64,000 nt of DNA, from NCBI RefSeq assembly GCF_963678245.1, contig NZ_OY782768.1, positions 1 to 64,000 on the forward strand. Direction: 5' to 3'. The notes under the pieces were generated by a model. The model saw nothing but the letters and a program-made list of their open reading frames with translations. It was not told the origin of the DNA and searched no databases. The position numbers were made by a program, and so were the translations under genes. Shown one piece after another: positions 4,607-49,753 of this stretch. This DNA is from an uncultured Sunxiuqinia sp. Its GTDB lineage: Bacteria > Bacteroidota > Bacteroidia > Bacteroidales > Prolixibacteraceae. How positions within the stretch are numbered: the first letter of the stretch is position 1; each line of letters opens with the position of its first letter.

Positions 4607-4912
4607 TTAATCTGCAATCAAATATTCCTCTACTGATTCACCTTCTTCCAGCGCATCCAGAATTTCGTCGATACGCTCTTCTGTGATTCCACCGTACCAT
4701 AAGTTTAATGGTTGAACCACCATAACTGGTCCTTGCGAGCAAACATTTAAGCATGCAGTTGATGTAACAGCGACATCGATGCCACGGTCATTGCATTCTT
4801 CCATGATGTATGGAATAAAATCAGAAGCGCCGGTTTTGTTACAAAACCCTTTAGCGTCGCCTGCCACCCGGTACGAATTGCAAACTAAAATGTGATATTC
4901 AGGTTTTTTCAT
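4607..4912 (-). CDS. Thioredoxin-like [2Fe-2S] ferredoxin of the nif cluster
   Basis: This 101-residue protein has the four cysteines of thioredoxin-fold [2Fe-2S] ferredoxins: C11, C24 (C-x12-C) and C54, C58 (C-x3-C). The motif ACLNVCSQGP is typical. Relatives sit next to nifB in other anaerobic diazotrophs and probably serve electron transfer in nitrogenase function or cofactor assembly. The gene begins immediately after nifV upstream of it in coordinates (adjacent, no gap). Its 5' side is unusual: a 72-base micro-ORF ends 18 bases before its start codon, and the same arrangement precedes an ampG-like gene at 21280. Confidence 0.9.
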   Translation of the reverse strand: MKKPEYHILVCNSYRVAGDAKGFCNKTGASDFIPYIMEECNDRGIDVAVTSTACLNVCSQGPVMVVQPLNLWYGGITEERIDEILDALEEGESVEEYLIAD

Positions 4913-4930
4913 ACGATTAAAATTGTTTAT

Positions 4931-5002
4931 TTATAAAGTATCATATGGAACTCGCACTTTAATCATTACCTTTTGTGTATTGACTAAATATGCTCGTTTC
5001 AT
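4931..5002 (-). CDS. Putative 23-residue micro-ORF (leader-like) before the nif ferredoxin
   Basis: An ATG at 5002 opens a 24-codon frame ending in TAA at 4931-4933. The peptide starts MKRAYLV and ends KVRVPYDTL. A second copy at 21190-21261 has the same length, 65 of 72 bases identical and no indels. Both copies are followed by a matching 18-base spacer and then ATGAAAAAA of the downstream gene. Most base changes between copies alter the amino acid, so conservation may be of DNA or RNA rather than peptide. It could be a leader peptide, a duplicated promoter/leader segment or a dispersed repeat. Confidence 0.45.
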   Translation of the reverse strand: MKRAYLVNTQKVMIKVRVPYDTL

Positions 5003-5035: not shown

Positions 5036-5116
5036 GTTGCCCTGATTTTGTTTCAGGATCTGTTTGATAAACGTATCTTTCCTTATTAGATGGAGATCCC
5101 GAAATAAATTCGGGAT
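5036..5116. repeat. REP-like intergenic repeat with two stem-loops
   Basis: Between nifB and the ferredoxin gene, CCTGA/TCAGG (5041-5057) forms one short stem. ATCCCGAA with TTCGGGAT (5096-5116, loop ATAAA) forms a second. The second stem is of the widespread Bacteroidota type that translates as FISGSP in one frame. A 77-codon open frame over this region (4959-5192) is explained by the repeat and is not called as a gene. Confidence 0.7.
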
Positions 5117-21122: not shown

Positions 21123-21182
21123 ACGAAACGAGCATGTAAAAGTCACTTCATGCCAGTTCCATCAAATACCGATAAAAATTAA
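21123..21182 (+). repeat. Degenerate copy of the micro-ORF leader
   Basis: ACGAAACGAGCATGT followed by AGTTCCATCAAATACC resembles the micro-ORF at 21190-21261, but the start is ACG instead of ATG and part of the middle is missing. The open frame reads KRAC at the start and VPSNT near the end. It lies 7 bases upstream of the intact copy, like a decayed tandem repeat. Confidence 0.5.
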
Positions 21183-21189
21183 ATTTACA

Positions 21190-21261
21190 ATGAAACGAGC
21201 ATGTTTAGTCAAAACACAAAACGTAGCGATTAAAGTGCGAGTTCCATCTGATACCTTATAA
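21190..21261 (+). CDS. Putative 23-residue micro-ORF (leader-like) before the ampG-like gene
   Basis: ATG at 21190, TAA at 21259-21261. The peptide starts MKRACLV and ends KVRVPSDTL. It matches the micro-ORF upstream of the nif ferredoxin (4931-5002) in 65 of 72 bases with equal length. The spacer to the next start codon is 18 bases in both places and matches in 16 of 18. Five changed codons alter the amino acid and one is silent, so coding function is not proven. Confidence 0.45.
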   Translation: MKRACLVKTQNVAIKVRVPSDTL

Positions 21262-21279
21262 ATAAACAATTGTAATCAT

Positions 21280-22557
21280 ATGAAAAAAGCCACAACCCGC
21301 AATGCCTGGGCTTGGATTCCCTCTCTATATTTTGCTGAAGGTTTACCATACGTTTTTGTAATGACCGTTTCGGTAATCATGTACAAGCGGCTGGACATTT
21401 CCAATACCGACATTGCTTTATACACCAGTTGGCTTTATTTACCTTGGGTCATCAAACCCATTTGGAGCCCGATTGTGGACAACCTCCGTACCAAACGATT
21501 CTGGATTATCAACATGCAAATACTCGTTGGCGGAGCACTTGCCGGTGTGGCGTTTACTCTGCCCATGAGCAATTTTTTGCAATACAGCCTGGCCTTTCTT
21601 TGGTTGATGGCTTTTAGCTCGGCCACCCATGATATTGCTGCCGATGGCTTTTACATGTTGGGACTTTCCAAACACGACCAGGCATTTTTTGTGGGTATTC
21701 GAAATACGTTTTACCGTTTTGCCATGCTAGCCGGACAAGGGCCCTTGGTGATTCTGGCGGGCCACATGGAAACCATCGCCAGCAATACGTCGTGGGCATG
21801 GAGTATCACGTTCTTTATTTTTGCAGCGCTGTTTGCAGCATTTTCACTCTATCACCTGTTCATTCTGCCCTACCCTAAAGGCGATCAGAAACGGGGGGAC
21901 AAAAGCATGCGAGAAATAATGGCCGACTTTGGAGAAACTTTTGTTTCTTTTTTCAAAAAAGAAGGCATCTGGACCGGACTAACTTTCATTTTAGTTTTTC
22001 GTTTGGGAGAGGCACAACTAGCGAAATTGGCTTCTCCGTTTCTACTCGATGATGCATCAGCAGGAGGCCTCGGGCTCACAACCAGCAACATTGGGTTCGT
22101 ATACGGAACCGCTGGCATTATTGCACTAACACTCGGGGGGATACTGGGTGGCATTGCCGTTTCAAAACATGGAATTAAAAAATGGCTTTGGCCAATGGTC
22201 ATTGCCATGAACTTACCCAATCTAGTCTACGTTTTTCTGGCCTTTGTTCAAACTCAACAACTCGGAATCATTACTGCTTCGGTTGTGATTGAGCAGTTTG
22301 GCTATGGATTTGGGTTTACCGCCTACATGCTTTATATGATTTATCTTTCGGATGGTGAGCACAAAACAGCCCACTATGCGCTGTGTACCGGTTTTATGGC
22401 TTTGGGAATGATGTTGCCGGGAATGATTAGTGGATGGATCCAGGATATGATTGGATATCAATATTTTTTCATCTGGGTCATGTTATGCACAATCCCCGGC
22501 TTTGTGATTGTCAACTTCCTGAAAATTGATCCGAAGTTCGGCACAAAAGAAAAATAA
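21280..22557 (+). CDS. AmpG-like MFS permease
   Basis: The 425-residue protein has about 12 transmembrane segments of the major facilitator type. The N-terminus (WAWIPSLYFAEGLPYVFVMTVSVIM) and WLYLPWVIKPIWSPIVDN resemble AmpG, which imports anhydro-muropeptides for peptidoglycan recycling, and related permeases of Bacteroidota. It lies downstream of GHL10, GT2, DUF4922 and SpoIID in the same direction, which supports a wall-fragment substrate. The exact substrate is inferred. It is preceded by the 23-codon micro-ORF and followed by a hairpin terminator. Confidence 0.85.
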   Translation: MKKATTRNAWAWIPSLYFAEGLPYVFVMTVSVIMYKRLDISNTDIALYTSWLYLPWVIKPIWSPIVDNLRTKRFWIINMQILVGGALAGVAFTLPMSNFLQYSLAFLWLMAFSSATHDIAADGFYMLGLSKHDQAFFVGIRNTFYRFAMLAGQGPLVILAGHMETIASNTSWAWSITFFIFAALFAAFSLYHLFILPYPKGDQKRGDKSMREIMADFGETFVSFFKKEGIWTGLTFILVFRLGEAQLAKLASPFLLDDASAGGLGLTTSNIGFVYGTAGIIALTLGGILGGIAVSKHGIKKWLWPMVIAMNLPNLVYVFLAFVQTQQLGIITASVVIEQFGYGFGFTAYMLYMIYLSDGEHKTAHYALCTGFMALGMMLPGMISGWIQDMIGYQYFFIWVMLCTIPGFVIVNFLKIDPKFGTKEK

Positions 22558-47466: not shown

Positions 47467-48018
47467 TCACAATGTTGTTTGGACATTCACAAATCCTTTT
47501 TCCCCGGCATAATCTCTTGCCGAACTGTAAAGATAATCTTCTGCCCGTGAAACAATCATTGCGCGGACCGGATTTTCATGCGTATAATTAATCCGTTGCT
47601 CAATCAATCTCGTATTATCCAGCAAAATGGCATGGTTTGTTTCCTGACAAAATTTATAGGTTTTGATTCTGTTATCAAACTTTCCGGTATACCGAAAGCG
47701 GTACAGCATCCATTCCTTCCGGCTTTCTCCTTGATTTTCAACAATAGCTTCAATGATGGCTTTACTAGTAAACTTCTTAAAATCCCGGAGAATGTCCGGC
47801 AACAAATGCCCTTCTTTTGCCCTTACTATTAAATGCACATGATTTGTCATGATGCACCAGGCAAATAGTTCAAGTCCTTTGTGTTTCTGACAATAATCCA
47901 AGTTCTCAACTAAAATGTTCTTGTACTCATTGCGCGTAAAAACATCTACCCACCCTTGAACAGCAAAGGACACGAAATAAACTCCATCAGCATTATGAAA
48001 CTTATACTTACGGCTCAT
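47467..48018 (-). CDS. REP-associated tyrosine transposase (RAYT, TnpA-REP)
   Basis: The 183-residue Y1 HUH-type transposase acts on REP hairpins at the single-strand level. It starts MSRKYKFHNADGVYFVSF; the HUH motif is in CIMTNHVHLIV and the likely catalytic Tyr in the YLYSSARDY region. It is flanked by a REP hairpin downstream. Its 3' half and the following REP are nearly identical (about 99%) to those of the broken copy at 48894-49445, while the 5' halves are much more different. Confidence 0.9.
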   Translation of the reverse strand: MSRKYKFHNADGVYFVSFAVQGWVDVFTRNEYKNILVENLDYCQKHKGLELFAWCIMTNHVHLIVRAKEGHLLPDILRDFKKFTSKAIIEAIVENQGESRKEWMLYRFRYTGKFDNRIKTYKFCQETNHAILLDNTRLIEQRINYTHENPVRAMIVSRAEDYLYSSARDYAGEKGFVNVQTTL

Positions 48019-48893: not shown

Positions 48894-49445
48894 TCACAAT
48901 GTTGTTTGGACATTTACAAATCCTTTTTCCCCGGCATAATCTCTTGCCGAACTGTAAAGATAATCTTCTGCCCGTGAAACAATCATTGCGCGGACCGGAT
49001 TTTCATGCGTATAATTAATCCGTTGCTCAATCAATCTCGTATTATCCAGCAAAATGGCATGGTTTGTTTCCTGACAAAATTTATAGGTTTTGATTCTGTT
49101 ATCAAACTTTCCGGCATACCGAAAGCGGTACAACATCCATTCTTTTCGGCTTTCCGGTTCTTTTTCAATCATCTTCAAAATTGTCTTTGAAGTGAACTTC
49201 TTAAAATCCCGGATTATATCGCTTATCCTGAAATGTTCTTTTGCCTGGCAAACTAAATGCAAGTGGTTTGACATTAGGCTTCAGGCAAACAATTCCAGTC
49301 CTTTGTTTTCGATGCAATAGTTTAAGGAATCAGCTATAACAACTTTGTATTCTTTTCGTGTAAAGACATCAATCCAGTCAATTACCGTAAAGGTTAAAAA
49401 GTATAGGCCATTTTGATCGGTGATAAAATAGTTGTCGGCAGACAT
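48894..49445 (-). pseudogene. RAYT transposase gene broken by an in-frame stop
   Basis: From the ATG at 49443-49445 the frame has the same length as the intact copy (552 bases). At the codon before the HUH segment, where the intact copy has Trp (ELFAWCIMTNHVH), this copy has TGA (GLELFA-stop-SLMSNHLHL). A shorter product from the ATG at 49274 would keep the HUH motif but lack the N-terminal part. The 3' 300 bases match the first RAYT almost exactly. Confidence 0.85.
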
Positions 49446-49753
49446 TTTTAATTGAAAGATATTAAGAAATGCTTCTCAATGCAATACGTCTGTGTATTGT
49501 CGTTACAAACGACGACCAGCTTACCCCTCGTCAACGCTCACGCTAAGACGAGGGGTAGGTGGGGCAAACTTTTGCTTTTGCAAAGCAAGGCACGGGACAC
49601 AGACCAGCGCCAGTAAGGAGATAAAATAGTTGTCGGCAGACGTTTTTAATTGAAAGATATTAAGAAATGCTTTTCAATGCAATACGGCTGTGTATTGTCG
49701 TTACAAACGACCATCAGCTTACCCCTCGTCACCGCTAACGCTAAGACGAGGGG
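49422..49753. repeat. Two 134-base direct repeats each ending in a REP hairpin
   Basis: 49422-49555 and 49620-49753 are about 94% identical. Each contains the first bases and upstream region of the RAYT gene and ends with CCCCTCGTC/GACGAGGGG (REP elements at 49524-49555 and 49722-49753). In the second copy the RAYT start codon is lost. The 64 bases between them contain a degraded GCACGG-type palindrome. Confidence 0.8.

Follow-up and report, generated by a model that had tools for sequence, protein, structure and literature searches.

A short folded repeat unit of about 90 bp was found directly before the start codons of two genes in the 64,000-nucleotide stretch of Sunxiuqinia DNA analysed here (the window), and copies of it recur in the rest of this genome and in many other Bacteroidota. 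Sequence comparison makes it probable that the unit is a non-autonomous mobile element of about 90 nt, which works as a folded single strand and inserts precisely 5' of ATGAA. By analogy, its geometry is best read as IS200/IS605/REP-like.

Results

Two complete copies and one decayed copy lie in the window

The preliminary description of this DNA reported two 72-base open frames before unrelated genes, at 5002..4931 (-) in copy A and 21190..21261 (+) in copy B. Read directly from the window, the frames were identical at 65/72 bases with 0 indels, the 18-base spacers behind them agreed at 16/18 positions, ATGAAAAAA followed both spacers (at 4912 and 21280), and 5/6 changed codons altered the amino acid, all as reported. 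Two features had been overlooked: the repeat unit comprises all 90 bases up to the ATG, beyond the micro-ORF, and a third, decayed copy is present at 21125-21182 (+) (25 bits, E = 1.3e-6 with the family model). Copies A and B scored 69.9 and 71.7 bits against the family model, far above the best unrelated window match (6.9 bits), so their likeness is not due to chance. Coordinates are collected in Table 1.

Copy A sits between a native leader and the ATGAA of a 101-aa ORF (4607-4912), and by match coordinates this site was filled in one related genome (G004) and contiguous, that is empty, in another (G003). The 101-aa protein, previously labelled 'nif ferredoxin', had no Pfam match at 1e-5; the gene after copy B encodes an MFS/AmpG-like protein (Pfam MFS_1, BT1), and the two genes do look unrelated. 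We read the decayed copy as running to 21189. With copy B taken out, its end would read ...AATTTACA|ATGAAAAAA, and the two copies together may be read as repeated insertion at one start codon. Upstream of copy A, window positions 5041-5116 (-) hold the REP-like palindromes TCCCGAATTTATTTCGGGA and CCTGAAACAAAATCAGG, and short matches to this segment recur elsewhere in the same genome.

Table 1. Element copies, targets and paired segments located in the window
Feature	Position	Strand	Basis and remarks
Element copy A, complete, 90 bp	4913..5002	-	Sequence and family-model matches; first 72 bases are the micro-ORF
Element copy B, complete, 90 bp	21190..21279	+	MFS/AmpG-like gene (21280-22557) begins with ATGAAAAAA immediately behind it
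Older decayed copy abutting copy B (end as read)	21125..21189	+	Model matches 21125-21182 and 21123-21176 (E = 0.17); joined flanks
Target ATGAA at the start of the gene after copy A (start codon and next bases)	4908..4912	-	Sequence; ATGAA after copies
Target ATGAA at the start of the gene after copy B (start codon and next bases)	21280..21284	+	Sequence
Conserved GAGTTCCAT box, copy A	4945..4953	-	Sequence and covariation; holds proposed guide TTCCAT
Conserved GAGTTCCAT box, copy B	21239..21247	+	Sequence and model match
H2 left arm CATATGAT, copy A	4940..4947	-	Pairs with 4917-4910 (ATCGT|ATG), one T.G wobble; H2 covariation
H2 left arm CATCTGAT, copy B	21245..21252	+	Pairs with 21275-21282 (ATCAT|ATG), one mismatch; sequence and H2 covariation

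The element is abundant in a large group of Bacteroidota

The first family members were found by a DNA query with the first copy against its own genome, and a sequence-only model (R1) was built from 16 own-genome copies. The preliminary description had suggested searching the whole genome and related Bacteroidota; with R1, this search gave 83 matches at E < 0.01 in the 4.87-Mb genome, eight of which (E 5e-4 to 0.005) were left out of later sequence analyses, and matches in 44/61 genomes, the own genome included, with high numbers mainly within the same bacterial family. The unit has the layout ATGAAACGA - hairpin - GAGTTCCAT - A/T-rich tail, followed directly by ATGAA. A pattern scan of 84,980 species returned at least 120 stretches; the pattern fixes ATGAAACGA, GAGTTCCAT and ATGAA, and these boxes are thus no evidence in any analysis of the pattern set. 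Among the 120 stretches listed, 117 titles name Bacteroidota or genera placed in it. The other titles were 'Bacterium BMS3Abin03' (two) and Klebsiella pneumoniae (one MAG contig, L395), the latter probably a chance match or a misplaced contig. Most of the listed stretches with a discernible order were Bacteroidales/Marinilabiliales and two were flavobacterial.

In a phylum sample, 21/296 genomes had matches; three of these genomes lie outside the class, among them G220, with 14 matches by number scored. Four matches came from viral contigs, and of these at least L412 is probably a chance match. In 20 genomes picked for holding a pattern match, the number scored ranged from 1 (two Parabacteroides) to 150; such counts depend on the model, G035 having 48 matches with R1 at E <= 0.1 and 30 with model R2 at E <= 0.001. 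High copy numbers were seen in isolates such as Thermophagus xiamenensis, Labilibaculum and Carboxylicivirga. Ten downstream genes were tested against Pfam, and 9/10 had a match, the exception being the 101-aa protein after copy A. Genes found behind copies encode an MFS transporter, a LepA-like GTPase, a FolD-like dehydrogenase, a Ham1 protein, phosphoglycerate mutase, a low-molecular-weight phosphatase, D-Ala-D-Ala ligase, an ABC ATPase and SHMT.

Several loci showed further peculiarities. At G000:C10:164338-171827 (L092), three near-identical copies stand in a row, each with similar sequence on both sides; here a block that includes the element has been duplicated. In relatives, several copies (L071, L230, L234, L235) contain a nested palindrome, CCGCCAGCTGGCGG or CCGCCAGTTGGCGG, in the H2 loop, and L199 has an insert, CTCCGTCAGCTGACGGA. 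At G000:C1:859379-859437 (L116, also L007), a different palindrome (TCCCGAATTATCGGGA) replaces the interior of H1 between intact boxes.

The reading frame is not the conserved feature

The preliminary description offered a new small-protein family or a leader peptide, with peptides of the form MKRA...KVRVP, among its explanations, and some own-genome copies do have open frames of 23-31 codons. In 125 copies of the pattern set, the GAGTTCCAT box lay in frames 1, 2 and 0 relative to the left ATG in 43, 43 and 39 copies, and the most frequent micro-ORF length was four codons (32/125). Since all three frames are equally represented and lengths peak at four codons, the reading frame is not what is conserved, and NCBIfam had no match for 4/4 micro-ORF peptides. 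The peptide is incidental: the micro-ORF exists because the left end of the element begins with ATGAAACGA where the native start used to be. At the level of the family this refutes the protein reading, to which we give almost no credence; individual peptides may still act locally.

Covariation supports a folded structure that includes the target ATG

Covariation analysis, which had been suggested as a check on structure, revealed compensatory changes in three helices (H1, its inner hairpin P2, and H2). In H2, CATnnnnn pairs with n'n'n'n'n'|ATG, in which the ATG is that of the target. In the set of own and related copies, four variable positions of H2 each exceeded 1000 permutations. In the pattern set, positions 0 and 1 were Watson-Crick paired in 116/128 and 118/128 copies, against permutation means of 43 and 51, with four and three pair types; position 2 was also above permutation and positions 3-5 were not. 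These 128 copies share only four with the 140-copy anchored set described below, and the permutation tests ignore kinship among copies.

H1 consists of an AAC/GTT foot, a conserved GA opposite GA, a closing GC (also CC/GG), the inner hairpin P2 and a conserved unpaired stretch. In the GAGTTCCAT box of copy A, GTT pairs with the AAC of the left end (the H1 foot) and CAT with the target ATG (H2). The foot is invariant and therefore gives no covariation evidence. In the pattern set, inner positions 0-4 of H1 were above 2000 permutations, as were positions 2-4 and 6 of P2, while positions 0, 1, 5 and 7 of P2 were not. In the first copy set (100 copies), only inner position 0 of H1 was clear, and positions 1 and 3 were not above permutation.

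For the full structure, removal of similar, atypically long or short, and doubtful copies (among them L299, L395, L403 and L406) left 44 copies, of which 40, together with five earlier ones, formed a 45-copy alignment (A3); the doubtful copies except L412 stayed in the pattern-set covariation, mismatch and frame counts. On these 45 diverse copies, 86.1% of cells were paired compared with 76.2% after shuffling, and the covariation score was 0.271 compared with 0.115 (0/500 shuffles; slid controls <= 0.083). RNAalifold saw almost no structure in 16 own copies; the structure emerged with diverse copies. These results demonstrate that the structure is real and that one helix uses the target ATG as an arm.

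The two strands gave different indications as to which one folds. RNA parameters slightly favoured the gene strand (58/89 copies) and DNA parameters did not (42/89). Mismatches relative to permutation were 0.72 for G.T, 0.59 for A.C and 0.45 for the others. The conserved GA/GA fits the gene strand, and G.T in the foot fits the opposite strand.

The element lacks fixed terminal inverted repeats, since the bases at its right end are hypervariable and change in concert with an internal arm. This feature weighs against a MITE moved by a DDE transposase, which the short, non-coding, multi-copy nature of the element would suit, as it would an RT-mediated retro-element. RVT_1 was absent in 5/14 element-bearing genomes, four of which have 122-148 matches, and a reverse transcriptase is thus not needed. 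We regard both origins as very unlikely.

Comparison supports precise insertion before ATGAA and recent multiplication

Flanks of 13 own loci were joined without the element and searched in the genus. Empty sites were found at base level for lepA (5 same-genus loci), folD (5) and a gene that we take from its N-terminal motif to encode a HAD-like phosphatase (4), the native leader being contiguous with ATGA; small indels occurred near some empty junctions, with a larger one at the HAD locus L178. By match coordinates only, sites were empty for an rdgB-like gene in four genomes and for the gene after copy A in one. The sister genome G004 was filled at 12/13 loci, judged by the gap between flank matches, and had no clear orthologue of the 13th.

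In a related genome (G002), four copies agree at every base over 94 bp and have different upstream flanks; a fifth copy departs from them at one base. Three of the four reach the end of a contig, with their right flanks out of view. The element is mobile, since these identical copies occupy unrelated places in one genome. Head-to-tail stacking with a common ATGAA was also seen, the target being another copy in 13/125 pattern-set cases; the left-end ATGAA of each copy is itself a target. Taken together, these comparisons support insertion at ATGAA and recent multiplication. As in IS200/IS605, insertion appears to occur next to a short fixed target without duplication, with precise junctions and ATGAA in the right flank, a pattern from which a 5-bp duplication of ATGAA would be indistinguishable.

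The right flank was examined in 140 of 168 matches, kept for a complete right end and recognisable boxes under an anchor that required [AG]TGAA; it read ATGAAA in 123 copies, ATGAAT in 10, ATGAAG in 4, GTGAAA in 2 and ATGAAC in 1. Pattern-set targets were gene starts (60), intergenic (27), within called genes in sense (19) or antisense (2), another copy (as above) or too near an end (4); we infer that at least some of the 19 sense cases are micro-ORFs running into the gene. The ratio of gene starts to intergenic sites (60:27) compared with 236:515 for background ATGAA outside genes (Fisher odds ratio 4.85, p = 2.5e-11). Setting aside copies that have another copy behind them, 40/49 in the own genome and 64/85 in relatives precede an ORF that either measures 60 aa or more or runs off the stretch. 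Some intergenic copies lie, as judged by eye, just before terminator-like hairpins. Start codons are thus favoured about fivefold as targets and are not exclusive.

According to the preliminary description, an ordinary dispersed repeat would be recognised by further copies that lack an open frame or lie at random relative to genes. Many copies do lack a frame, whereas their position relative to genes is far from random and they have a covarying structure in common. Its suggestion of a mobile 5' leader/promoter cassette holds for the mobile leader, given the empty sites and the identical copies elsewhere, but not for the promoter: a box resembling TAnnTTTG, the Bacteroidota -7 box, occurred in 11/128 copies (2/128 after one base shuffle each) and is not general.

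Much of the same evidence bears on whether the unit is a cis-acting RNA regulator (riboswitch, thermosensor or protein-binding leader) in which H2 would hide the AUG and the unpaired stretch of H1 would sense something. The structure is conserved, H2 takes in the start codon, and the element is oriented with the following gene and enriched at starts. However, the genes behind copies are unrelated (LepA, FolD, D-Ala-D-Ala ligase, SHMT, Ham1, phosphatase), the same genes lack the element in congeners, copies stack in tandem, and the 27/125 intergenic copies have no called gene start. Regulation would at best account for retention, not for spread, and we assign this reading a low probability.

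Copies are not enriched beside Y1/RAYT genes

Of 91 Y1/RAYT loci, some of them repeated, three held a match at E < 0.01 (L421, L282 and L426; five matches), against 2.25 matches expected from density. Copies are therefore not enriched beside these genes. In Anaerophaga (L421, G063:C198:9696-13034), a 150-aa Y1 frame has two same-orientation copies about 0.5 kb or less upstream of it. L282 has two copies, both decayed, about 0.7 kb from a RAYT fragment. At both loci other palindromes stand nearer the Y1/RAYT genes, by eye, those of L421 being CGCCCCTTTGGGGC. No PF01797 match was found in G071 (a MAG with 128 element matches), G066 (18) or G080 (8), and G062 (148) had one weak match. A RAYT query found homologues in 27/61 genomes, the own genome included, and none at E <= 1e-5 in G011 (65 element matches) and G023 (36). 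When 1264 ORFs from 124 loci were clustered, the 14 largest clusters, viewed by eye with one sequence each, contained no recurring transposase. The elements are about 90 nt without a Y1 tnpA inside; a long gene-carrying copy would not show as one match with the models and pattern used.

The window itself contains an open REP-associated tyrosine transposase gene at 47467-48018 (-) (NCBIfam NF047646, 89 bits, above the cut-off) and, beside it at 48894-49446 (-), a second one broken by TGA, with the palindrome CCCCTCGTTTCCGCTTCGCTCAAACGAGGG behind each. Y1_Tnp matches in very long frames (about 1000-1300 aa) were seen at G016:C12:95679, G016:C82:27419, G061:C10:15336 and G063:C198:33727 and are perhaps Y1-domain fusions. 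An IS200-like gene with the motif YIKNQEEHH (subclass-1.2-like) lies amid repeats such as CCCCCGGATTTATC and AACCGGGCTTTAGCC at G004:C35:108500-112000 (L189); PMC6006769 reports subclass 1.2 as generally without terminal structures.

The element might be the REP of a Bacteroidota RAYT (TnpA_REP subclass 2.6), that is, a canonical REP/REPIN. According to PMC6006769, transposases of subclass 2.6 have 'atypical secondary structures' beside them, further copies of which occur in the same genome. The open and the broken RAYT gene of the window, the single-guide geometry and the Y1 gene of L421 with its two nearby matches all speak for this identity. Against it, the window RAYTs are flanked by their own, different palindromes, L282 is the only one of 30 RAYT-like loci that holds a match, and two element-rich genomes (G011, G023) gave no RAYT homologue at the cut-off above. 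We consider it unlikely.

Discussion

We place the element among small mobile repeats that fold, but keep it apart from REPs. Like REP/REPIN with RAYT as described in PMC6006769, it is short, folded and non-autonomous, with tens to hundreds of copies, and a guide beside the hairpin foot fits our proposal. Unlike REP/REPIN, it is about 90 nt long with two coupled hairpins, abuts ATGAA and is enriched at start codons. In place of the GT[AG]G guide of REPs at the hairpin foot, it has the boxes GAAACGA / GAGTTCCAT, and its copies are not enriched beside the 91 Y1/RAYT genes; subclass 2.6 is also without GT[AG]G, according to PMC6006769. The element could be among the unspecified 'atypical secondary structures' that PMC6006769 mentions for Bacteroidetes transposases of subclass 2.6.

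With the ends of IS200/IS605 elements (IS608, ISDra2; HUH Y1 TnpA), the element shares the order target | ... guide - hairpin - cleavage site on one strand, and insertion 3' of a short fixed target without need of a target-site duplication. It differs in having one hairpin and, as proposed, one guide for both ends, in lacking tnpA, and in its target, ATGAA/TTCAT. MITEs, reportedly described in Porphyromonas gingivalis (PMC4596501), are likewise small non-autonomous repeats, whereas the element has no fixed terminal inverted repeats and its right end covaries. Rfam gave one unrelated weak match for nine loci at E <= 1 and none for 14 loci at gathering thresholds, and our literature searches found no published description of the element or its boxes, in agreement with the preliminary description, which knew of no such element.

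Read on the non-gene strand, the sequence runs TTCAT| - spacer - ATGGAA - hairpin - TTTCAT|. This order of target, guide, hairpin and end is that of IS200/IS605 and REP and thus favours a trans-acting HUH/Y1-type ssDNA nuclease; the guide logic is taken from PMC6006769. Such a nuclease is our first choice for the mover, held tentatively and at less than even chances. A single internal sequence, TTCCAT (ATGGAA on the other strand), would serve as the guide, pairing with both cleavage sites through the left-end ATGAAA and the right-flank ATGAA; we infer this role from the arrangement of the boxes.

The next choice is a tyrosine recombinase acting on a folded site like that of integron attC, with paired ATGAAAC/GTTCCAT, an unpaired GA spacer, an inner stem and exchange within ATGAA. 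The boxes of integron attC sites have the consensus RYYYAAC/GTTRRRY. The element resembles attC in its folded strand, its outer and inner boxes, its unpaired spacer and its variable end, and ATGAA is common to both junctions. Unlike attC, its boxes ATGAAAC/GTTCCAT are off the consensus, its target shows only ATGAA, and it lies outside cassette arrays with no integrase tied to it. This mover is unlikely, and most of the remaining odds fall to some other enzyme.

Under the mobile-element reading, the micro-ORF would arise as the native start region comes to precede the element's own ATGAAACGA, and the host gene would gain a new initiation region from the A/T-rich end, a gain that would account for the tolerance of insertions before lepA, folD, glyA or ddl. 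The excess at start codons may reflect that many genes begin with ATGAA, that insertions within genes are lost and that copies at starts are probably retained. As a possible account, held at less than even odds, we propose a new kind of mobile element centred on start codons, in which one guide would pair with ATGAA at both the left end and the target, the mover would be neither a canonical Y1/RAYT nor a reverse transcriptase, the element's own translation-start region would spare essential genes, and the AUG would be placed in a hairpin.

The element is abundant in a large group of Bacteroidota, in which it alters the 5' leader and the surroundings of the start codon in many genes, housekeeping genes included. 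Automatic gene prediction could be misled by it, calling a spurious micro-protein family or setting starts in the wrong place. Should the single-guide model be true, the element would be a minimal guide-targeted ssDNA element, of use for studying target finding and host tolerance of insertions at start codons.
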